This document shows, one piece after another, positions 4,679-39,806 of a stretch of 64,000 nt of DNA. Source of the DNA: Pseudobacteriovorax antillogorgiicola (lineage in GTDB: Bacteria; Bdellovibrionota_B; Oligoflexia; Oligoflexales; Oligoflexaceae); NCBI RefSeq assembly GCF_900177345.1, contig NZ_FWZT01000007.1, positions 62,001 to 126,000 of the forward strand, read 5' to 3'. The translations under genes and the position numbers were made by a program. Under the pieces are notes generated by a model, which saw only the letters and a list, made by a program, of their open reading frames with translations, was not told where the DNA came from and made no database searches. Numbering within the stretch: position 1 is the first letter of the stretch; the number at the start of each line of letters is the position of its first letter.

Positions 4679-4755
<77 letters not shown>

Positions 4756-27127: not shown

Positions 27128-30100
27128 GTGGCAAGGAATAGCAAGCTTATTGGAGCTATCATAGCCGACCGCTACTGTATCACCAATGAAATTGGTGCCG
27201 GTGGTATGGGGCGGGTGTACTCTGCTATTCCCTTTGATGATCCTTCGCAAAATGTGGCAATCAAAGTTATCGTTCGGGATCGCAAGCTAAACTACGAAGA
27301 CTTACTCCGATTTCAAAAGGAAGCCGCTTTGATGAGCCGGCTCCACCATCCCAATATTATTTCCTTCCATGAGTTGGGTCTTATCGAACCCGGCGCGTCC
27401 AAAGCCCTATCTGGGGGCTACTACATCGTTATGGAAATCGCTCAAGGGCAGGACCTAAAGAAAACTTTGCAACAAGGAAGGCAGGACCTAGAGTTCTTTT
27501 TCCAAGTGGGTTTGCAGGTTAGCTCTGCACTGGAGTACACCCATAGCAAAAACATCATTCACCGGGATATAAAGCCCCAGAATATCATCGTCGGAGGCTC
27601 GTTAAAGGAAGACGATCAAAACAGTGATCTGATGGTCAAAGTACTGGATTTTGGTGTTGCAAAGCTCGCTGAAATCAACCAGTTTGAAGGGGCCCGCGAT
27701 ATTGCAGGCACCCCAATGTACATGGCTCCTGAGACTTCAGAATATCTGGATGCCCCTGTGGACCACCGTTCTGATCTGTACGCCTTGGGCTGTGTCGTGT
27801 ATGAGATCCTTGCTGGTCGACCGCCGTTTGCTGCGGGTTCGAAGGATAAACTGGCCCGCGAACATGCATATACGAAGCCAGAGCCAATCTCGACGCTCCG
27901 TCCTGAGGTTCCTGACTACATCAACGATATCGTCCTCAAGCTTCTTGCCAAACATCCCAACGACCGCTACCAAACGGCCTTCGGTCTCCACGTTGACTTA
28001 CAGAAAGCCCGGCGCTGTTTCCACCAAGGCCTTGCATTCTTCGATGTTTCCACCGCCCTAGCGCGATATGATGGTCTAAGAATCATGACTGGTAGCCTTG
28101 ATTTGATTGGTCGAGAGAAAGAGTTCCAACTGCTAGTGGATAACTATACCGCGATTTCTAAAGGCCGTGGGCGCAGCCGCTTGTCGGTTGTCCATGGCGA
28201 AGCCGGTAGTGGTAAGAGTCGCCTGCTCAATGAGATGCGCTCTTACCTCGCAAAACATAAGATTCGCTATGTGTCTACATCGTTCTCTCGCCATGAAAAT
28301 AACCTACCATTCAATGCCCTTGCCAATGGTTTGAACGAATATTTGATTAAGGTTTTGAAGAGTCAGCAGCTGGAAGCCGAAGAGATCAGAAGCAAGGTTA
28401 AGGCGTTGTTGGGCAATACCGCGGATTTGGTTGCTAAGGTTGTACCTGGATTGAAGCCCTATATCTACGACCACATTGAGGACGTGGAGTTGGGCGCCCA
28501 CGATGAGCTAGATCGAGACTTCGACTTCCCTGCTTTTGCCAAAGCGTTTTCAGATTTCACTCGCTGTCTCACTTCTGACAATCAACCCATCGTATTTATA
28601 TTCGATGATATGCATTGGGCAGATCAAAAAAGCATTGAGCTTGTGGATCGTTTCTTTAGTCACAATAACTCACAACGATTTTATTTAATTGTCAGCTATA
28701 GTGAAGGCGCTTCCCACGACCAGGAGCATTTTCACCGCTTTGTTCAAAAGTTTGAAAAGCTACGCCGTCGCTACAGCGAGGTGCATGTGGGAGCTTTGGA
28801 GCCTGAAGCCGTAGGGGAGCTGACACGAATCATGCTCAACACTGAGCAGCAATTGGAGTCCGACCTTGTCGGGTATCTGACGGGAAAAACCAAAGGTAAT
28901 CCACTCTATCTCGTTGAGCTGGTTCGCTCATTGGTAGCGAAAGATTTTATTAGTCTTGACGAAACCTCAGGGGTATGGAGCTATGACACCAAGGCTATCA
29001 AAAATACCAAGGTTCTTCTCGATTCTATCGATCTGACTTTGAATCGTGTCCTAGAGTACGACTCCGTTGATCAGTCGGTTCTAGAAGTCGCGTCGGTCGT
29101 GGGAACATCATTCCACTTTGAAATGCTTATGACGGATGCCTCCCTGCAAGCCATTACGGTGATGAGAGCTTTGCAGAGAGCGATGTCCGACTACCTTATT
29201 GTTCGAAGCAATGATATTGACGATCTGAAACACCTTGGCAAATCATTTGCTTTCTCCCACCATCGCATCCGCGAGTCCATTAAAGACGCGATTCCACTAG
29301 AGCGTCGGCAGGAGCTACATAAGCAGATCGCCCTGAAACTGCAAAGCTTGCTACCTGAACCCTTAACGCAAACGGTGTTTACCCTTGCTCACCACTTTAA
29401 TCAGGCTCTAGGTGAAAATCCGGGAGCGAAAGCGGAAGCTCAGCAAGATATTGTCATGCTGGCTTTCAAGTACAATGTGATGGCCGGCGAGAAGGCTTAT
29501 GAGATCCGCGCCTTAGTTTCAGCTGAGCGTTATTTCCGAAATGCCTACAAGTTGTTCCATCTTCTGGACAGCAATAAGACAGCCAATATGAAAAAACATG
29601 TACTCAATAAGTTGGGTGACGTCCTTGGGACTGAGAAGCAGTACTCCCAAGCGATAAAATTCTATGGCGAACTACTCCACTTCAATCCAACACGGAGCGA
29701 ATTCTCCGCTGTAACCTATAAGATGATCTATTTCGGGATGCTGAATGGGGTCGTTTCAGAGTCTCTAACGCAACTCGACTTCGTTTTAAAGCGACTCAAA
29801 ATGCCCCTCGCAAGGCCTCACTGGAGCCAGATCATACGCCTCTATTTGCAAGCACTTATAGTTGCAGTTTTCGGAGAAAAAAGCTCGATTCTTCGAAAGT
29901 TGAATATCTTAGCGAAGTCGCTAAACAAGCGCCGCGACCTCGCCAAAGAAGGGTTTCATCCTGTAAAGCTTTATCATCTTGGTCAGGCGATCGCCCTAAC
30001 CCAAAATCGAAAGTTGGCCTTGGCCTATCACTGGCGGGCCCTTCGACTATGTCTTCGCGGCAAGGCGAGTCCGGACGCAGTCCTGCGGACATTCGGCGAT

Positions 30101-32545
30101 TTAGGTATTATTCTAGGCTACTTTGGCTTCAAGAAAGCTGCCTACTATGTGGTGGATGAAGCGATCGCCCTTTCAAAGAAGGAAGGTCTGGAGAGAACGT
30201 ATGGTTATCTCCTCTCTATGAGAACTTTGACACTCGACCATTTTCAAGGCAAGTTTGAAGACTACGAAGCTAATATCACCGAAGCTATGCGCCATGTCAG
30301 CTACGAGAACAGTCAGCAACTGATAGTACAAGGCATTCTTTTTAGAATGTACCAGCACATGACCAAGGGCCGCCATGAAGAGGTTGCCCATCTGGTGAAG
30401 CAGCTGCCCCTCCACCTTAGGACGAGGCACTGGTTGAGCCCCCGAGGGGTGTGTATCTATTTATTCAGTTTGCTTTTGAAGGATGCCCGGGAACAGATTG
30501 TCTTGCATAAAGGTTACCTAAAACGCCGGGAAGAGGTCGGTGCGCGCCGTCAGGGCTTATTCCTATTTATGGCGGAAACGATCATTTTCTTCTCAATGGG
30601 TGAGATCGAAAAAGCTTACACCTCATATCTGAAGTCGCTCAAGACCTATACCAGTTTCACTCATGGGTTTATGTTTCCTTATGAAGAAGACTTTACCATG
30701 ATTTTCTTATTGTTTTTTCCGAGCATTTTCACCCATGAGTATCAAAACTTTGATTGGGATATGAGGGAGCTGAAGGACGAATTTCGCTACATTGATCGAC
30801 GGGCATCGCAGCGGGAGTTCCAAAGCCGACCAGCACCCTGCTTGGTGCAAGCGCGGCTAGAAGAGCTGCTCGTGGGCAAGGCAACAAAAGTAAAATACGA
30901 TCGCGCCCTTAAAGCATCGCGGGTATCTCAGGATGTGCTCGTTGAGCTCATCACTCAGTACTGGTTCGGGCGGCACTTGCTTAAAGACCAGCAGATGAGC
31001 CGAAAAGAGTATATCTATAAGATGCATATGAATGCTCGAAACTTAGGTCTATCCATGCTTGAGAATATGGCAGCATCGGTTCTAGAAGAGTATAAATTCC
31101 CTGTGCCAGGGTCTGAAAGAGTTTCCAATAGTGAAGATGACCGTGTTCAAAATCAGCTGTCGCGGCTTGGCAAGGAAGCCATCGCGTTGACCCATGGTGC
31201 TCTATCCAAAGATTTGCCGTCGGTGGATGCCCTTAATAAGTCTCTACGAGCCTTACGCAGGAATTATTCATTTAAGTTTGTTCATTTGATCTTAGAACCT
31301 CACTTGCAGCAGGAGAATCCCTCACCGTTCTCAAGCGATAAGCGTAGCACTCGCGTCAATCGGCTGATTACTGATTATGCGGGCTCCTACATGGCGGTAA
31401 GGTCGACGCTTTTTATTCCTGAAGGCGATGCTCCTTGGAATCGAGATGATCATGAGTTGTCTGCAAGTACCGTGTTTCAGGGACGGGATGGGGGATCGTC
31501 GATCAGCCTTGGCAATGTAGAAGCTCCGTCGGAAGATATGGAAGATACGATGGTCTTGGAAGGTACCGTTGATATTGCGGGCGGCAGCAACCAAGAAGAC
31601 AAGGCTAAGAGTCGCGATGGCAAGTCTCCTAGCTTGAACACTCTGGTACCTGTTAAATATGCCAATCAAAACTTGGGTATCGTCTTGCTCGAAAAAACGG
31701 AATTGGATCGAGGGGACTCGACCCAGAGCCGTCAAGATCTTGACTATTTTGGGGCCTACCTTGGGCTTTGGCTACGCTACGATACCATCATGGGAAAATC
31801 AGAGTTTAACCCTAACTACTATTACCGATCTGGCCATAGCTACATAGAAAATTGTCCATGGCTCGACATGTGGCCAGAGGGCAGCTTAAGGGGCAGCCGG
31901 GAGTCGACCTGGTACTTGGGTTTAGCCTTGTCGACAAAGGAGTATCTCCTCGTCTACTGCCGTTTGAATGGCATCGAAGAGATCCGAGAAGATATCAGCC
32001 AGAGGGTTTGGTATCACTTGCTGGCGATGCGGAGCTTATTTGTTGCTAAAGACAAAAAGGTCGTTTCGTGGGAAGACCTCCATGAAGAGATAGCCAAAGT
32101 ACTCTATTCAACCGATCGGGTGCGGCGGCTGGAAGCCATTTCCATTGCCTTCAGTATTATGAACCGCGACACCCACGACATTATTAGCGGTCATTTTGGG
32201 CCGTCGAGGCCTCTAGTGTTAGGGCGTGTCAATGAAGTCGTGCCTCAGGACCGCGTGGTCCTCAATATGATGAATGGTAGGAGTCTTCGATTTTGGAGGG
32301 TCGAAACTACCCTTGAAATGGGAGCCATCTACATTTTGACTCATGATTCGAGCAAGCTTGACGAAATCCAGATGCAGGCTTTGGAAAAGGTAAACTTTTT
32401 TGGCAGTTCTTTAGAAAAAAAGAGACAAACCTTTTTACTATATTTAAAACAGGTACTTGTCGCAGGGCACGTTCCGCGATACTTTGTTGCTGCCACAAGG
32501 CACAGTGGACAAACAAATTTAGAGCAATTAGACAAGGCTGAGTAG
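27128..32545 (+). CDS. Giant Ser/Thr kinase - AAA ATPase - TPR - GAF - SpoIIE-like pseudophosphatase
   Basis: 1805-residue cytosolic regulator. Kinase (about 14-280): GAGGMGRVY, VAIKVI, HRDIKPQNII, DFGVAKL and GTPMYMAPE, all intact. AAA_16-type NTPase (about 325-600): GEAGSGKSRLL (Walker A) and IVFIFDDMHWAD (Walker B). A long helical TPR-like region (about 720-1400) follows. A GAF-like segment (about 1430-1570) contains LVPVKYANQNLGIVLLEK. The C-terminus (about 1590-1745) follows the PP2C/SpoIIE strand order but lacks the metal-binding Asp residues (GHFGPSRP, THDSS). GTG start behind CAGGGG. Related to the STKc-AAA sensor kinases; signal and targets unknown. Confidence 0.85.
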   Translation: MARNSKLIGAIIADRYCITNEIGAGGMGRVYSAIPFDDPSQNVAIKVIVRDRKLNYEDLLRFQKEAALMSRLHHPNIISFHELGLIEPGASKALSGGYYIVMEIAQGQDLKKTLQQGRQDLEFFFQVGLQVSSALEYTHSKNIIHRDIKPQNIIVGGSLKEDDQNSDLMVKVLDFGVAKLAEINQFEGARDIAGTPMYMAPETSEYLDAPVDHRSDLYALGCVVYEILAGRPPFAAGSKDKLAREHAYTKPEPISTLRPEVPDYINDIVLKLLAKHPNDRYQTAFGLHVDLQKARRCFHQGLAFFDVSTALARYDGLRIMTGSLDLIGREKEFQLLVDNYTAISKGRGRSRLSVVHGEAGSGKSRLLNEMRSYLAKHKIRYVSTSFSRHENNLPFNALANGLNEYLIKVLKSQQLEAEEIRSKVKALLGNTADLVAKVVPGLKPYIYDHIEDVELGAHDELDRDFDFPAFAKAFSDFTRCLTSDNQPIVFIFDDMHWADQKSIELVDRFFSHNNSQRFYLIVSYSEGASHDQEHFHRFVQKFEKLRRRYSEVHVGALEPEAVGELTRIMLNTEQQLESDLVGYLTGKTKGNPLYLVELVRSLVAKDFISLDETSGVWSYDTKAIKNTKVLLDSIDLTLNRVLEYDSVDQSVLEVASVVGTSFHFEMLMTDASLQAITVMRALQRAMSDYLIVRSNDIDDLKHLGKSFAFSHHRIRESIKDAIPLERRQELHKQIALKLQSLLPEPLTQTVFTLAHHFNQALGENPGAKAEAQQDIVMLAFKYNVMAGEKAYEIRALVSAERYFRNAYKLFHLLDSNKTANMKKHVLNKLGDVLGTEKQYSQAIKFYGELLHFNPTRSEFSAVTYKMIYFGMLNGVVSESLTQLDFVLKRLKMPLARPHWSQIIRLYLQALIVAVFGEKSSILRKLNILAKSLNKRRDLAKEGFHPVKLYHLGQAIALTQNRKLALAYHWRALRLCLRGKASPDAVLRTFGDLGIILGYFGFKKAAYYVVDEAIALSKKEGLERTYGYLLSMRTLTLDHFQGKFEDYEANITEAMRHVSYENSQQLIVQGILFRMYQHMTKGRHEEVAHLVKQLPLHLRTRHWLSPRGVCIYLFSLLLKDAREQIVLHKGYLKRREEVGARRQGLFLFMAETIIFFSMGEIEKAYTSYLKSLKTYTSFTHGFMFPYEEDFTMIFLLFFPSIFTHEYQNFDWDMRELKDEFRYIDRRASQREFQSRPAPCLVQARLEELLVGKATKVKYDRALKASRVSQDVLVELITQYWFGRHLLKDQQMSRKEYIYKMHMNARNLGLSMLENMAASVLEEYKFPVPGSERVSNSEDDRVQNQLSRLGKEAIALTHGALSKDLPSVDALNKSLRALRRNYSFKFVHLILEPHLQQENPSPFSSDKRSTRVNRLITDYAGSYMAVRSTLFIPEGDAPWNRDDHELSASTVFQGRDGGSSISLGNVEAPSEDMEDTMVLEGTVDIAGGSNQEDKAKSRDGKSPSLNTLVPVKYANQNLGIVLLEKTELDRGDSTQSRQDLDYFGAYLGLWLRYDTIMGKSEFNPNYYYRSGHSYIENCPWLDMWPEGSLRGSRESTWYLGLALSTKEYLLVYCRLNGIEEIREDISQRVWYHLLAMRSLFVAKDKKVVSWEDLHEEIAKVLYSTDRVRRLEAISIAFSIMNRDTHDIISGHFGPSRPLVLGRVNEVVPQDRVVLNMMNGRSLRFWRVETTLEMGAIYILTHDSSKLDEIQMQALEKVNFFGSSLEKKRQTFLLYLKQVLVAGHVPRYFVAATRHSGQTNLEQLDKAE

Positions 32546-32585
32546 GGGTCTATACCCGCTGGCCGAATGAAACTAAAATGTACTA

Positions 32586-32707
32586 AGAGGCTGTCTGAAA
32601 AGCCTACTATCAAGGCTTAATGAAGATGAAAAAACCTAAGATCATTTATCAAACTTAGGCTTTTTATCGAGACATATCGCAGGGGTTGGACTTTTCAGAC
32701 AGCCTCT
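32586..32707. repeat. MITE-like element with perfect 17-bp terminal inverted repeats
   Basis: AGAGGCTGTCTGAAAAG at 32586-32602 is exactly repeated in inverse at 32691-32707. Between them lies an inner hairpin (CCTAAG...CTTAGG followed by CTTTTT) that could act as a terminator for the kinase gene. A diverged relative lies at 39559-39681. There is no ORF, and no clear target duplication. The ends resemble those of IS families with GAGGCTGTC-type termini, so a non-autonomous derivative is plausible. Confidence 0.75.
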
Positions 32708-32751
32708 GAAGCATTGAACATAGTTTTGTTTCTTGATTAAGGAGTATTTAA

Positions 32752-32946
32752 ATGGGTTTACCTGGCGCGACAGAAATGCTGATTATTGCAGGTGTGATTG
32801 TACTTCTGTTCGGAGCTTCCAAGTTGCCCAAACTTGGTGGTGCTGTAGGCGAAAGTATTAAGAACTTCAAAAAGGGAATCAAAGAAGATACTCCGAAGCT
32901 ATCTGAGGACAATAAAGAAGACAAAGACGACGAGGCTAAAAGCTAA
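32752..32946 (+). CDS. tatA: Sec-independent translocase protein TatA
   Basis: Pore-forming subunit of the twin-arginine export system. 64 residues: one membrane helix (about 6-22), the hinge FGASKLPKLG, an amphipathic helix (GGAVGESIKNFKKGIKE) and an acidic tail. The FGxxKLPxLG signature is decisive. AAGGAG lies 9 nt before the ATG. No tatB or tatC is visible. The region just upstream is the MITE-like element, so the promoter may sit within or immediately beyond it. Confidence 0.93.
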   Translation: MGLPGATEMLIIAGVIVLLFGASKLPKLGGAVGESIKNFKKGIKEDTPKLSEDNKEDKDDEAKS

Positions 32947-33201: not shown

Positions 33202-34134
33202 TTGACCCTGCTGAATAGTCTGCTTGAAAAGAAGTTAGTTCTTGTTACCGGTAAGGGAGGAATAGGCAAATCGCTCACGGCTGCGTCTATCGCTCAGTAC
33301 GCCGCGTCTCAAGGCAAAAAAGTTTGTCTGGTCGAGTCCAATGCCCAAGAGCAGCTTGCGCCTTTATTTGGTCAAGAGCGAGTCGGGCATAAACTGCAAG
33401 AGCTTAGTCCGAACTTGTTTGCCATAAATCTGAATCCACAAGACAATTTCCGTGACTTTGTAGTTCTGCACCTTGGCTTTGCTAAGCTTTTTGAAAAAGT
33501 TTTTACCAAGCCCCTTGTGAAGAGCTTCATTAACATGCTGCCTGGCATCTCGGAGCTGACGCTTCTGGGGCGACTCTACTACTTTAGTCAACTGGATGAC
33601 AAACATAACTTTGACATGGTTGTCCTTGATGGCTTTGCATCGGGGCACTTCATGAGTTTACTCAAGACTCCAGATGCAGTTTTAGATTCAGGAATGGTAG
33701 GGCCGGTGATCAAAGAAACGAAAATGGTCAAAGACTTCATTTTCGATGAACGTTACGTTTCAGTTGTATTAGTGACGATGCCCGAAAATTTGATCGTTAG
33801 CGAAGCGATAGACTTTTCAGAGCGCTTTAAGACTGAGATTCCTGTGCCCCACAGCCATGTGATCGTCAATCGTTGCTTGCTGCTTGATGAGTCGGAAGAG
33901 CAAGCGCTAAAATCTGCTAGCTCTATGGAGCTTGCTGTTCGGTATATGAAAGCCCGCTTAGAATCTGAATCTTCGAGCCTGCAACGTCTGAAGCAGGGGT
34001 TGCATAATATCTACCAGGGGCTGCAAAAAGAGCCACAGCTTCTTTTGCTTCCTGATTTGGGCGCTGTTGATGAGCCACTCTCTGGGCAATTTGCAAGGTC
34101 TTGGTTCGATCAAGCTGAAGGGGTTTCGTTTTGA
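33202..34134 (+). CDS. ArsA/GET3-family P-loop ATPase, first of a pair
   Basis: 310 residues. The deviant Walker A GKGGIGKSLTAASIA is of the ArsA/MinD type (GKGGxGK). MVVLDGFASGHFMSLLKTPDAV resembles the switch II region with the family's D-x-x-x-x-G-H. The TTG start at 33202 has GGAGG 7 nt upstream. It overlaps the following ArsA paralogue by 4 nt (TTGA), so the two are co-translated and probably form a heterodimer. No arsenic genes are near; a role in targeting membrane proteins, as for GET3, is only one possibility. Confidence 0.82.
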   Translation: MTLLNSLLEKKLVLVTGKGGIGKSLTAASIAQYAASQGKKVCLVESNAQEQLAPLFGQERVGHKLQELSPNLFAINLNPQDNFRDFVVLHLGFAKLFEKVFTKPLVKSFINMLPGISELTLLGRLYYFSQLDDKHNFDMVVLDGFASGHFMSLLKTPDAVLDSGMVGPVIKETKMVKDFIFDERYVSVVLVTMPENLIVSEAIDFSERFKTEIPVPHSHVIVNRCLLLDESEEQALKSASSMELAVRYMKARLESESSSLQRLKQGLHNIYQGLQKEPQLLLLPDLGAVDEPLSGQFARSWFDQAEGVSF

Positions 34135-35252
34135 ATATAAGTGACATTTCAGGGCCAGTGCTGGATCTGGTAAAAAATAATCGAGTCATTGTCACCTTGG
34201 GGTCTGGAGGCGTCGGCAAGACGACAACCTCGGTTGCCCTGGCCGTTTTAGGAGCGATGCTTGGTAAGAAGGTCGGGCTTTTGAGTATCGATCCTGCTAA
34301 ACGCCTTGCCGATGCTATGGGAATTAAACTTGGCAGTAGCTTAAGCAAGGTGGAGTTTGCTGCTGATAGCGGGGTCACGGGCAGCGTCTATGGCGCTATG
34401 CTGGATCAAAAGGCTGTCTTCGATGAGATGGTTGAAAAGTGGGCACCATCACAAAAAGTTAAAGATAAGATCTACGCAAACAGTATCTATAAAGAAGTAT
34501 CTGCAAACTTGGGCGGACCCTTGGAGTATATGGCTCTTGCCAAGTTACAAAGTATGTCTGAGGATAAGAGCTTTGATTTGATTGTGCTGGATACTCCACC
34601 GGACACCCATGCGTTGGATTTTTTACAGCGGCCGGATGCCCTTTCAGGCTTTACCGATGGGGGTGTCATGACTTGGCTCATCAAGCCTTTCTACATGGCA
34701 CAAAAATTGGGGGCGGGCAAGCTCTTGAAAGCGAGTGGTCGCTTGATGTCTGGAATTTCGAATGTCACTGGGGTGAAGATGCTGCAGTTGCTATCGGAAT
34801 TTCTAGTTCTTATGGAAGATGTCATCAAAGGCTTTGCCGTTGCAGGCAATCAAGTTTCCGAGCTATTGAAAAGCAGCGATACAAGTTTTATCTTAGTTGC
34901 TGCACCAAACAACGCTGCTGTGCGCTCTGCAGAATGTCTGCTCGATGAGCTAGGTCGCAACCAATTTCCGTTGGGTGGCTTATTCGTCAATCGCTGCTTA
35001 GCAAGTGATCTGGAACAAAGCCTGGCTCACTTTGAACACGATCCAAAGGCTGGAAATACCCCTGGGGTAAACTTACTGCTAAAGAAAAGGGATCACGGCA
35101 AGGATCTGCTTGCGAAGCTAAAGAGCCATATGGAACGAACCTTCGGTGATCGGACCCCCATGATTAAAGTTGAAGAGCATAAACAGTTTATTCACTCTCT
35201 TGAATCTCTCTTAAGTTTTTCTCATGCTGTCGCGGGTGCTGCAAAGATCTAG
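34131..35252 (+). CDS. ArsA/GET3-family P-loop ATPase, second of a pair
   Basis: 373 residues. Walker A GSGGVGKTTTSVALA, then LLSIDPAKRLADAMG (switch I region with Asp) and LIVLDTPPDTHALDFLQRP (switch II, D-T-x-P-x-T-H), all matching ArsA-type anion-transporting ATPases. The sequence is closer to the canonical family than its partner. TTG start overlapping the upstream stop. It is followed after 113 nt by mlaE on the same strand; whether the pair serves the Mla system is unknown. Confidence 0.85.
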   Translation: MNISDISGPVLDLVKNNRVIVTLGSGGVGKTTTSVALAVLGAMLGKKVGLLSIDPAKRLADAMGIKLGSSLSKVEFAADSGVTGSVYGAMLDQKAVFDEMVEKWAPSQKVKDKIYANSIYKEVSANLGGPLEYMALAKLQSMSEDKSFDLIVLDTPPDTHALDFLQRPDALSGFTDGGVMTWLIKPFYMAQKLGAGKLLKASGRLMSGISNVTGVKMLQLLSEFLVLMEDVIKGFAVAGNQVSELLKSSDTSFILVAAPNNAAVRSAECLLDELGRNQFPLGGLFVNRCLASDLEQSLAHFEHDPKAGNTPGVNLLLKKRDHGKDLLAKLKSHMERTFGDRTPMIKVEEHKQFIHSLESLLSFSHAVAGAAKI

Positions 35253-35365
35253 AATCCACGGGAAGCGCTTGTCTGAAAAGCCTGAGCGTTCCTAAAGACC
35301 TAGGCAGTCCCCGTGATGCGGTGTATGATGGCGAATGAATTTGGCCTGGCGTGAAAGGAGCTTTC

Positions 35366-36172
35366 TTGAGTCAGACACAAGCAGAGCAAAATATTGTCGA
35401 ACAGGGTATCTCATCATTTGGCCAAAAAATTCTCTCAGGCCTTGCATCTATTGGCGAAGTTACTATTTTTATTAAAGAATCTGTGGTGCAAGTGGTTCGC
35501 CCGCCGTTTCGATTTCGCCTTGTGCTCCAACAGATGGAGTTCATAGGTAATCAATCTCTCACAATTGTTCTGATATGCGGGTTTTTCATCGGCGCTGCGG
35601 TGAGTCTTCAGGTGGGAACGATCTTTGTCATTTTTGGTGCAGAAGGCATGTTAGGTGCAGCCAACGGCAAAGCTCTGTCGCGGGAGTTAAGCCCCTTGAT
35701 CACTGGCTTCTTGCTAGCGGGTCGTGCGGGGGCGTCCATGACAGCAGAAATCGCATCAATGAAGGTCAATGAGCAGATCGACGCCATGGAGTCGATGGCT
35801 GTGGACCCAATCAATTATCTTGTGGCACCTCGGCTGATAGCGAGTGTCATCATGTTGCCCCTGCTGGTTTCCATCTTCAACCTCGTAGGGCAGATGGCAT
35901 CAGTGGTGATTGGGATTTTTGTTTTCAATATCGATCAAGGGGCCTTTTTCGAAAAGATGGTGAATATCGTCAGCCCTAGTGATATTTGGAGTGGGCTTCA
36001 AAAGGCTATTATTTTCGGTGGCATTATCGCATTGTTCGCTTGCCGCTTTGGTTTAACGGCTAAGGGTGGAGCTAAAGGTGTGGGGCAGGCAACAACGAAT
36101 TCAGTTGTTACAATCTTACTTGTCCTTCTGCTTGTAGACTTCATCACAACCTATATACAGATAGTGCTTTAG
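35366..36172 (+). CDS. mlaE: MlaE-type ABC transporter permease
   Basis: Inner-membrane permease of a phospholipid transport system (MlaFEDB-like). About 268 residues with five or so helices. MlaE family motifs: VLICGFFIGAAVSLQVGTIF, ELSPLITGFLLAGRAGASMTAEI and MKVNEQIDAMESMAVDPINYLVAPR. TTG 35366 is the best start because AAAGGAG ends 5 nt upstream; a GTG at 35351 lies before that SD. It is followed 3 nt later by the ATPase gene. Clear assignment. Confidence 0.93.
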   Translation: MSQTQAEQNIVEQGISSFGQKILSGLASIGEVTIFIKESVVQVVRPPFRFRLVLQQMEFIGNQSLTIVLICGFFIGAAVSLQVGTIFVIFGAEGMLGAANGKALSRELSPLITGFLLAGRAGASMTAEIASMKVNEQIDAMESMAVDPINYLVAPRLIASVIMLPLLVSIFNLVGQMASVVIGIFVFNIDQGAFFEKMVNIVSPSDIWSGLQKAIIFGGIIALFACRFGLTAKGGAKGVGQATTNSVVTILLVLLLVDFITTYIQIVL

Positions 36173-36175
36173 AGT

Positions 36176-36925
36176 ATGATTAGGTTTGAACACGTAACAA
36201 AGCAATTTGGTTCCTTTAAAGTTCTTGATGATCTTGATGTCGAGATTCCTAAAGGCAAGATCACTGTCATCATTGGCAAGTCCGGTGAAGGAAAGTCGGT
36301 GACGATCAAGCACATCATGGGTCTTCTAAAGCCCACCAAAGGCCGGGTTTTTGTGGATGGCGAGGATATTACTGACTTTGAGATCGAGGACCTGAAGAGG
36401 ATTCGTCGCAAGATTGGAATGTTATTTCAGCACGCAGCGTTGTTCGATAGTCTTTCTGTCTTTGAAAACGTGGCATTTCCAGTTTTAGAGCATGAAAACG
36501 TTCCATTTGATGAACTCAAAGATCGGGTCGGAGAGGTCTTGGACATGGTCGGCCTCCCTGGAATCGAAAAAAAATTTCCTGGTGAACTGTCTACCGGAGA
36601 AAAAAAGAGGGTTGGCCTCGCCAGGGCATTAATTCACAAGCCTAAAATCATTCTTTATGACGAGCCGACGACGGGAATGGACCCCTTGGTTTCAGAGATG
36701 ATTGACGAGCTGATTGTCGCTGTGAATCAAAATAACCCAGAACTGACATCGGTGGTGATTTCTCACGACTTGAAAGCTGCCTTGGATATTTCAGAAAATG
36801 TTGTCATGCTTTATAAAGGTAAGGTTCAGTTGGCTGCTAGCCCCGAAGAATTTCGCAATACAAGTGATCCTGTGATCCGTCAGTTCTTTTCGGGCAAGGT
36901 CGATGGTCCCATGGAGTTTATGTGA
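36176..36925 (+). CDS. mlaF: MlaF-type ABC transporter ATP-binding protein
   Basis: 249-residue ATPase that powers lipid transfer through MlaE. Walker A GKSGEGKSVTIKHI, Q-loop MLFQHAALFDSL, signature ELSTGEKKRVGLARAL, Walker B IILYDEPTTGMDPL and H-loop VVISHDL. The E-G-K variant of Walker A and STGE signature are usual in this family. The start is 3 nt after the mlaE stop. A 124-nt gap separates it from mlaD. Confidence 0.93.
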   Translation: MIRFEHVTKQFGSFKVLDDLDVEIPKGKITVIIGKSGEGKSVTIKHIMGLLKPTKGRVFVDGEDITDFEIEDLKRIRRKIGMLFQHAALFDSLSVFENVAFPVLEHENVPFDELKDRVGEVLDMVGLPGIEKKFPGELSTGEKKRVGLARALIHKPKIILYDEPTTGMDPLVSEMIDELIVAVNQNNPELTSVVISHDLKAALDISENVVMLYKGKVQLAASPEEFRNTSDPVIRQFFSGKVDGPMEFM

Positions 36926-37049
36926 CAATAGGCCATTATTTATCAAAATCTAAAACCCAAACTTCCTTCCAAACCATTATCAACGTTAAGCTTTTTGAGC
37001 GTTGGGTCGATGAAAGAGTCACGGAAGGGACAAAGGAGCCGCCACTGTA

Positions 37050-38489
37050 ATGGGTGATCGTTCGTTAGAATATAAAGTTGGATTTTTCTCACTGCTCGGT
37101 ATTGCTGCGACGGTACTTGCGGTATTTGTCTTGCGGCCAGATATGTTCAGCCGGCAAGACATGAACACGTACTATACCATACTTAAGGATGCTACCGGCA
37201 TTCTGGAAAAAACCCATGTAAAAACAAACGGAGTGACCATCGGTAAAGTTGCTTATATTCGCTTGGATGAGAACGCGACCCGGGTGGGAATGGAAATCAA
37301 TGAAGACGTCTTTATTCCTGAAGGCTCGAAAGTCATAGTTCGGACGGTTGGTTTTTTGGGTGACAAATTCATCGAAATTAAGAGACCGAGCAATGTCACC
37401 AACCCTGTTCCTGACCAAAGCTTTATCCCTCAGGCTACCGATGCATCGGACCTGGGTGAGGTGATCGCCTTGATTGGCTCCATTGCCAAGGATATTAAGA
37501 AGGTCACCTCAAATCTGGCAGCAGTCCTAGGAGATCGAGAAGGGGAAGAAAGCATTGCTCGAATTGTTGAAAACATTGAGCGATTTACCGAAGATGCCCG
37601 CGGAATATTAGAAGATAATCGAGATGATGTCCGAGACTTAGTGGCCAACATTCGGGAGTTTTCGGAGTCTGCAAACGATGTTCTGGATCAAAAAAACAGA
37701 GATCGGATCGAGCGTATTCTGGCTAACTTTGATGACTCGATGGTTGAGGTGCGGGGTGCTACCAAGAACATCAACCTCATCGCTCAAAAGGTGGAGAAGG
37801 GTGAAGGCACCCTGGGGCGATTGATCAACGATGACGATACTTTGACCGAGGTTGAGGGGGCGATCAAGGATATCCGCAAGGTTCTTGCACCTGTAACGAA
37901 GCTCGAAGTTGCCGTTGATACCAATACCTATATTCGTCGTGATAACACGGCGCAGACATACTTCAACTTGAAGTTTAGAACCCGGCCTGATGCATACTAC
38001 CTTATTGGTTTTACAGACTTTTCTGAAAGAACACGGGACACTACCGTAGAAACTCTCGATGGCGACTCAACGGACGGGGTTGTTCGTAGCAAGGAGACTA
38101 TTGTCGAAGACAGTGAGCTTCGTTTTAATCTACAAATCGCCAAGCGGTGGGGCAATTTAGGAGCTCGCCTTGGTCTTTTTGATTCAACTGGAGGTGTGGC
38201 AGGGGATCTGTACTTCTTCCGCGATCGCCTGCGGGTTTCCTTGGAAGTATATGATTTCGCAGATAAAGATAGTGAAGTTAGGGAGCTTGCCCATGTCAAA
38301 GCCTACGCTAACATCCTATTTTTCGACCATATTTATGCCATGATGGGTATCGACGATCCCACTCGCATAGATCCTGAAACAGGGAGCGTCAACAAGGAGC
38401 TAAACTACTTCTTTGGTGCTGGCTTGACCTTCAATGACCAGGATTTGAAGTCACTGTTCGGAATGGCTGCCATTGCAACAGGGGGCTAA
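37050..38489 (+). CDS. mlaD: MlaD/MCE-domain protein with C-terminal beta-rich extension
   Basis: 479 residues, far longer than E. coli MlaD (183). An N-terminal membrane helix (about 9-29) is followed by one MCE domain (about 40-120: GILEKTHVKTNGVTIGKVAYI, GFLGDKFIEIK). Then comes a helical region (about 145-290) of amphipathic repeats with Asp/Glu/Arg, and a C-terminal part (about 300-479) rich in alternating aromatic strands (YFNLKFRTRPDAYYLIGF, NYFFGAGLTF) reminiscent of a small beta-barrel. It should bind lipid between the membranes. AAGGAG lies upstream of the ATG. The tail's role is unknown. Confidence 0.85.
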   Translation: MGDRSLEYKVGFFSLLGIAATVLAVFVLRPDMFSRQDMNTYYTILKDATGILEKTHVKTNGVTIGKVAYIRLDENATRVGMEINEDVFIPEGSKVIVRTVGFLGDKFIEIKRPSNVTNPVPDQSFIPQATDASDLGEVIALIGSIAKDIKKVTSNLAAVLGDREGEESIARIVENIERFTEDARGILEDNRDDVRDLVANIREFSESANDVLDQKNRDRIERILANFDDSMVEVRGATKNINLIAQKVEKGEGTLGRLINDDDTLTEVEGAIKDIRKVLAPVTKLEVAVDTNTYIRRDNTAQTYFNLKFRTRPDAYYLIGFTDFSERTRDTTVETLDGDSTDGVVRSKETIVEDSELRFNLQIAKRWGNLGARLGLFDSTGGVAGDLYFFRDRLRVSLEVYDFADKDSEVRELAHVKAYANILFFDHIYAMMGIDDPTRIDPETGSVNKELNYFFGAGLTFNDQDLKSLFGMAAIATGG

Positions 38490-39384: not shown

Positions 39385-39806
39385 TTCATCGAATTTCTAC
39401 CCTGGTTCGCAGCCAGGGTGTCACGCCTCTTCAAATCCTCTATCCTCCTCGTCTGTAAGCCTCTAGGATATCTATTCGTTCGTTTTTTTATTGTCTTTCT
39501 CATGATAGTCTAAGGCAAGCCTTAGTAATTCTAATATGGGGAAATAGACGCGAGCCTATTAGCCTGTGTCAAAAGTCTAGGATCAAGGCTTGACGAAGAT
39601 AAAAATCCGGAGTTTAGTCAGCTAAATGAAGGCTTTTTGTCGAGACATAACATAGTGGTTGGACTTTGCAGACTGGTTCTAAACTTTATCTTCCAAGTGT
39701 CGACAAAGATAAGAGCCCTCGCTACACAGCGTCAAAGAAGTAACACTGTGAGATCTTCATAAAATGACTGATAATAGAGTAAGTGCCTTAGACATCGGAG
39801 GAACAT
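39385..39806. other. 422-bp intergenic region before prc
   Basis: It holds, in order, a 7-bp hairpin (ACCCTGG/CCAGGGT at 39399-39419), a short palindrome CTAAGGC-aa-GCCTTAG (39510-39525), the diverged repeat copy at 39559-39681, and the prc leader with GGAGG before the ATG. No ORF or clear sigma-70 promoter is supported. Confidence 0.5.
39559..39681. repeat. Diverged second copy of the MITE-like element
   Basis: About 120 bp colinear with the element at 32586. Shared blocks include ATCAAGGCTT near the left, GGCTTTTTnTCGAGACATA in the middle and GGTTGGACTTT near the right end. The inverted ends are imperfect here. The inner hairpin is rebuilt with different bases (TTTAG...CTAAA), so the fold is kept while the sequence changes. 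Confidence 0.65.

Follow-up and report, generated by a model that had tools for sequence, protein, structure and literature searches.

Non-catalytic bacterial relatives of the PP2C phosphatases, represented by RssB, and bacterial fusions of PP2C and kinase domains are both already known. SpoIIE has a regulatory domain that shifts two switch helices and thereby controls its PP2C domain; RssB is described as a PP2C relative that acts as an adaptor and is controlled through the same helices (PMC5468089). It has been proposed that RssB uses this SpoIIE-type switch for binding instead of catalysis, and the same source names TAB1 as another pseudo-PP2C (PMC5468089). The pseudophosphatase domain of TAB1 is described as having a PP2C-like structure and no activity, and TAK1-TAB complexes as being needed for TAK1 autophosphorylation (PMC5297835). 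Since TAK1 is bound via the C-terminal TAK1-binding segment of TAB1 and not via its PP2C-like domain, as this source has it, TAB1 provides a loose analogy (PMC5297835). Some PP2C proteins are also stated to carry kinase domains (PMC12088040). Among the matches listed from the open-access literature, there is no description of a live kinase and a pseudo-PP2C in one bacterial chain, and no paper on the protein considered here.

This protein is encoded in a 64,000-nucleotide stretch of Pseudobacteriovorax antillogorgiicola DNA (the window) by one open frame, which comprises a kinase, an AAA_16 ATPase, a helical/TPR-like region, a GAF domain, and a C-terminal domain of predicted PP2C fold. The first-pass annotation, which described a kinase-ATPase-TPR-GAF protein ending in a pseudo-phosphatase, gave the coordinates, strand, and frame correctly, and its order of kinase and ATPase is borne out by Pfam. 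The gene and its domains are as follows.

27128..32545, plus strand: whole gene, 1805 aa, GTG start.
27179..27973, plus strand: PknB-like Ser/Thr kinase domain, aa 18-282 (Pfam Pkinase, 2.3e-44).
28103..28687, plus strand: AAA_16/STAND-like ATPase, aa 326-520 (Pfam, 2.3e-22).
28760..31129, plus strand: conserved TPR-like region, aa 545-1334 (weak TPR matches).
31130..31816, plus strand: GAF domain, aa 1335-1563 (AlphaFold2; VIA-align to GAF chains).
31811..32518, plus strand: putative pseudo-PP2C domain, aa 1562-1797 (AlphaFold2, Foldseek, VIA-align).
31976..32107, plus strand: two helices, aa 1617-1640 and 1648-1660 (DSSP of the model).

The kinase appears to be intact, as had been claimed for its active motifs. 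K46, E65, D147, N152, and D174 are kept in all 30 sequences that have a kinase domain, the window's included, with the Hanks-type VAIK Lys, HRD Asp, DFG Asp, and catalytic Asn present in 30/30; the HRD Arg is replaced by Ser in two of the 30. The best NCBIfam model for this domain is PknB_PASTA_kin, at 237 bits and thus below its cut-off of 450. In the ATPase, the Walker A Lys is present in 31/31 sequences with the region, and the first Walker B Asp is replaced by His in 7/31. The TPR assignment holds in part: matches in the window protein lie below the Pfam cut-offs, whereas TPR_12 is found at E<=0.01 in 7 of the 20 sequences scanned (out of 32, window included), with a best value of 7.3e-07. 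The GAF assignment is likewise weak by sequence, with GAF_3 matching at E<=1 in 4/31 sequences (best 0.0032), and clear in the predicted model, where the GAF part aligns with 3k2n, the best GAF-type chain, at a VIA-align Z of 12.7 over 153 residues and 4.5 A. AlphaFold2 places a low-confidence insert inside this domain at about aa 1447-1497. Giants of the TOMM kinase/cyclase type also have a kinase, then AAA_16, then a long C-terminal part, and TIGR03903 matches the window protein best at aa 324-761, at 195 bits against a cut-off of 705.75. They differ in output, which in the window protein would be a pseudo-PP2C and not a cyclase, a histidine-kinase ATPase, a GGDEF domain, or an intact SpoIIE. 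The HstK type is another kinase-AAA-helical-output giant.

The C-terminal domain is predicted to have the PP2C/PPM fold. By sequence profile the assignment to SpoIIE/PP2C made by the first-pass annotation finds no match: 0/31 sequences match SpoIIE or any other PP2C family in Pfam (E<=1), the 22 PF07228 matches in the gene's own genome do not include it, and a PDB sequence search with the 31-row profile returns nothing at E<=10. The predicted structure supports it. The AlphaFold2 model of aa 1335-1805, built from 31 sequences, reaches a pLDDT of 83.1 and a pTM of 0.81, and that of aa 1562-1797 alone reaches 92.7 and 0.90. For the longer model, Foldseek ranks RsbU of Rv1364c first (7.3e-05) and SpoIIE next (1.1e-04), with RsbX (4.6e-04) below a second Rv1364c chain, and VIA-align matches its aa 1562-1795 to Rv1364c at Z 14.0 (200 residues, 3.8 A). 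For the domain alone, the best Foldseek match is SpoIIE 5mqh (1.3e-05), one of 12 matches at E<=0.001, and VIA-align gives Rv1364c RsbU (3ke6) at Z 13.9 (195 residues, 3.7 A), RssB (3f79) as second best at Z 13.1 (186 residues, 3.7 A), and SpoIIE 5ucg at Z 11.7 (194 residues, 4.2 A). Titles of 46 of the best 50 VIA-align entries name a PP2C/PPM phosphatase, ABI1/HAB1, RsbU, RsbX, or RssB; the remaining four (3zt9, 4jnd, 5mn0, and 4oic) are presumably PP2C entries or complexes as well. The structural likeness is moderate, with Foldseek TM-scores by query length of about 0.42-0.53 for rows of phosphatases and of RssB and rmsd values of 6-10 A; a few rows of Legionella SidD or effectors score lower. 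The TAB1 chain 2irm stands at rank 41 (E 0.023) for the longer model and is not among the best 50 Foldseek or VIA-align rows for the domain alone. Both structure predictions thus give PP2C, and the possibility that the C-terminus folds as something else was not borne out.

Profile-profile alignment was dropped as proof of SpoIIE homology. An hhalign comparison of 30 C-termini (27 kept) with 19 SpoIIE domains of the same genome gives a 64-column local match (score 15.9, E 0.17), and comparison with 30 SpoIIE domains (these 19 and 11 from giants) gives an alignment collinear over 204 columns. Its score of 18.6 does not stand out from those of 40 block-shuffled controls (14.0 +- 2.1, maximum 19.7), and the alignment is kept for register only.

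Among described systems, the predicted domain shares with SpoIIE, RsbU, and RsbX the strand order, two switch-type helices, and an AGH-like motif, and with SpoIIE also a regulatory domain ahead of the PP2C domain. In the models, the GAF domain directly precedes the PP2C-fold domain and the two helices lie where PP2C proteins have their switch helices, with which they are provisionally equated from their order along the chain. The window family differs from these phosphatases in having no acid at the D628 and D795 columns and no PF07228 match. Rv1364c of M. tuberculosis, the best structural match (3ke6), likewise combines a phosphatase fold and a kinase in one chain, but the title of the 3ke6 entry pairs RsbU with RsbW. 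RsbW is a GHKL-type anti-sigma kinase.

The metal site can be compared with that of SpoIIE, whose crystal is described as containing a single Mn coordinated by D628, D746, and D795, and in which a second metal could be held by D610, D628, and G629 (PMC3517971). The residue register used here comes from the collinear hhalign alignment and the strand positions of the model, not from superposed coordinates, and column counts cover 31 sequences, the window's included. The positions concerned are listed below.

31901..31909, plus strand: E1592-S-T1594, counterpart of SpoIIE D610 (M2 site), from alignment and column counts.
31958..31960, plus strand: C1611, aligned with the bridging D628, acidic in 0/31.
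32186..32200, plus strand: SGHFG motif, aa 1687-1691, aligned with NAGHP of SpoIIE-type domains, G1691 in 31/31.
32345..32347, plus strand: D1740, kept counterpart of SpoIIE D746 with a register of +-1, Asp in 26/31.
32474..32482, plus strand: P1783-R1784-Y1785, at the place of the DD motif (D795), acidic in 0, 0, and 1 of 31.

Positions 1609-1611, around the D628 column, are acidic in 0/31, and those just beyond are acidic in 3/31 (1612), 0 (1613), 1 (1614), 0 (1615), and 8/31 (1616). The D795 column corresponds to P1783/R1784, flanked by positions acidic in 2/30 (1781) and 1/30 (1782). The D610 column falls on T1594 (0/31 acidic), and E1592, two residues before it, is Glu in 26/31 and could point to the same face as the D610 position. 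The D746 column corresponds to H1739 or D1740, the latter also being Glu in 1/31. The SpoIIE/PPM ligand set of D610, D628, D746, and D795 is therefore incomplete, with the D746 counterpart alone kept, and the claim that the domain lacks the metal Asp residues stands for three columns and fails for D1740. Other residues are nearly fixed: W1595 (30/31), G1691, R1694 (28/31), P1783 (29/31), and Y1785 (28/31). Residues and predicted model together support a single chain that combines an intact kinase with a domain of phosphatase fold whose metal site is broken.

The domain could instead still be catalytic, as a phosphatase or another hydrolase whose active site has been rebuilt with migrated residues, which would make the protein a bifunctional kinase/phosphatase. 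A single metal might yet be bound by D1740 and E1592, and only one Mn was present in the SpoIIE crystal itself (PMC3517971). However, that Mn is described as coordinated by D628, D746, and D795 (PMC3517971), two of which have no acidic counterpart in any of the 31 sequences, and 5/31 members also lack Asp at 1740. Retained catalysis is considered very unlikely.

The domain is widespread in one order. At E<=0.001 the C-terminal 555 aa of the protein match 32 of 191 genomes, every one of them in the same order, and a search of the gene's own 7.28 Mb genome returns a single match, the gene itself. A profile of 31 C-termini, window included, was searched against 58 genomes of one phylum, and the class-level and phylum-level searches covered these same genomes and are not independent. 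Within the order (apparently Oligoflexales) it matches 33 of 43 genomes, leaving 10 without a match, and 0/15 of the other genomes of the phylum; among the 33, one gene is cut by a contig end (G002) and one match lies within the GAF part only (G015). When 31 homologous genes were aligned with the window gene, the stop-to-stop frames of the homologues measured 1735-2033 aa, save three cut by contig ends (1199, 1465, and 1478 aa).

Selection on the domain was estimated by the Nei-Gojobori method in the three pairs with dS<1, giving dN/dS values of 0.040 (L047/L048), 0.028 (L042/L043), and 0.056 (L036/L037). The same pairs give 0.006-0.021 for the kinase and 0.087-0.234 for the GAF domain. Eight pairs were computed in all, two having dS >2.7 (0.040 and 0.073) and three infinite dS; the window's closest pair (with L031) is among the saturated ones. 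A pseudogene, a decaying tail, and a chance frame are ruled out by the values of 0.028-0.056, and the substitution pattern indicates that a dead-looking domain is kept by purifying selection. Since it is kept in many relatives, the domain probably binds or regulates something and does not remove phosphate.

The domain may also be no more than a cap for structure or dimerisation, the remnant of an active SpoIIE-ended ancestor, kept for stability only. Inactive domains can persist as folds, and other giants of these genomes carry intact SpoIIE ends on a similar chassis. Against this, conservation is gathered in motif-like patches (SGHFG..RP, LRYW, and PRYY), and the dN/dS of the domain, in the three pairs whose dS is <1, is as low as that of the TPR-like region and lower than that of the GAF domain. 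A cap is considered unlikely.

The genome of the organism holds 22 SpoIIE matches, 19 of them nearly full-length domains; across the 43 genomes of the order, the number of SpoIIE matches ranges from 0 to 23. Since 19 such domains are present, substrates of that class probably exist, and the pseudo-PP2C might act as a decoy that binds the substrate (a STAS-type protein) of an active SpoIIE phosphatase and shields its phosphorylated form. Competitive pseudophosphatases have been described, as for STYX (PMC10211241), but no STAS domain was found among the window proteins scanned with Pfam (28 of the 51 ORFs of >=150 aa and one small ORF, at thresholds of 0.1 or 1e-5). Such a decoy is regarded as improbable.

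At least seven frames in the same genome, all of 1688-2016 aa and among them that of the window, have an AAA_16 match of >=85 bits (150 of 177 candidates scored). By eye, the other six giants end in a CheA-like histidine-kinase ATPase (three), a GGDEF domain (one), or SpoIIE (two). These two SpoIIE-ended giants are the reverse of the window protein.

L084:3124-8373, plus strand: giant with intact SpoIIE and a kinase without the HRD Asp.
L085:4646-10114, minus strand: giant with intact SpoIIE and a kinase without the HRD Asp.

Both retain the GGD, GDVTGHG, TDG, and DD motifs, and their kinase matches (4e-13 and 1e-17) are lower-scoring, both over the Pfam cut-off. At least 13 SpoIIE-ended giants (frames >=1500 aa) are present among the matches listed, of which one is cut at a contig end and 12 are readable. 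The HRD Asp is missing in 5/12, all of family f1, to which the window belongs, and all with intact phosphatase motifs on a chassis similar to that of the window protein; it is kept in 7/12, all of family f7, where two proteins near-identical in the stretches compared (L111 and L112) have DFD for DFG. A dead kinase paired strictly with a live phosphatase thus fails as a general rule, although such complementary loss is seen in the window's family. The window kinase is of a different, PknB-like type, and so the protein need not be a direct duplicate of the SpoIIE-ended giants. A division of labour among the giant kinase-ATPase-GAF-PP2C proteins of Oligoflexales, in which the order-wide member with live kinase and dead phosphatase opposes SpoIIE-ended members of the window's family with dead kinase and live phosphatase as an antagonistic pair on a shared chassis, each dead domain docking the substrate of its partner, is a long shot.

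The surroundings of the gene are partly conserved. Of the 31 homologous loci, 25 have pyruvate kinase upstream, on the opposite strand, and 21 have a pair of ArsA/Get3-type ATPases downstream, on the same strand, several loci being too short to show either neighbour. The ATPase pair is missing despite at least 3.7 kb of downstream sequence in six loci (L042, L043, L046, L049, L059, and L060), and in the last of these no pyruvate kinase is found in 4.9 kb upstream. A TatA-like match lies directly 3′ of the kinase gene in 15/31 loci. In the window, the downstream genes are these.

32752-32946, plus strand: small TatA-like gene (PF02416, 8.7e-18), between the kinase gene and the BagA-like gene.
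33202-38489, plus strand: overlapping BagA/BagB-like ArsA/Get3-type ATPase pair, then MlaE, an ABC ATPase, and an MlaD-type protein.

In NCBIfam the pair scores best against BagA (82 bits, below the cut-off of 400) and BagB (235 bits, below the cut-off of 521). MlaE is over its cut-off, the ABC ATPase is nearest MlaF and below cut-off, and the MlaD/MCE protein follows. In M. tuberculosis, bagAB is tied to protection against glycerol and nitric oxide toxicity, as described in PMC10597346. This neighbourhood suggests a link with the envelope or central metabolism. A palindromic repeat of about 128 bases occurs at 32585-32712 and at about 39561-39673, two of eight matches in the genome including itself. 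Elsewhere in the window, three tRNA-Asp(gtc) genes with equal Rfam scores lie close together at 4679, 8425, and 8637, and Rfam at gathering thresholds finds nothing beyond these three tRNAs.

The best reading of the C-terminal domain is that its role for the kinase is analogous to those of RssB and TAB1. RssB is likewise described as having a PP2C fold, a main role other than phosphatase, and regulation via an attached domain (PMC5468089). By predicted model and alignment, the window domain also has a PP2C fold without a complete metal site, and the two differ in what is attached, which in the window protein is a GAF domain, an ATPase, and a kinase. RssB is a receiver-domain adaptor for sigma-S and ClpXP, and the receiver domain is its defining part. 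Pfam Response_reg has no match in the 1805 aa at E<=0.1, and GAF precedes the domain instead. As in TAB1-TAK1, a pseudo-PP2C protein would work with a protein kinase, but there two animal proteins are involved and here one bacterial chain.

From the computed architecture, predicted fold, residue loss, and selection, we infer the inactivity of the domain, its binding role, and its effect on the kinase. It is on the whole probable that the protein is a large signal integrator, in which an inactive, GAF-gated pseudo-PP2C provides the kinase of its own chain with a module for binding or allosteric control. The pseudo-PP2C would not dephosphorylate, and would keep the regulatory layout of PP2C proteins, with a sensory domain right before two switch-type helices. 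Under control of the GAF domain, it may bind a substrate of the kinase, phosphorylated or not, or its own kinase domain, and such binding might direct the N-terminal kinase to its target, switch it on, or hold it back. Assembly or a signal-dependent conformation would be set by the TPR-like region together with ATP binding in the AAA module. Substrate capture or scaffold control, as suggested by the first-pass annotation, may describe this role, and kinase autoregulation fits equally well.

If this is true, a bacterial protein kinase carrying its own pseudo-PP2C, missed by Pfam, exists in most genomes of an order. With it, one could test directly whether the PP2C fold has been put to new use as a regulated binding module, as has been proposed from RssB (PMC5468089), and it would show that pseudophosphatases in giant signalling proteins can go unseen when annotation relies on Pfam profiles only.
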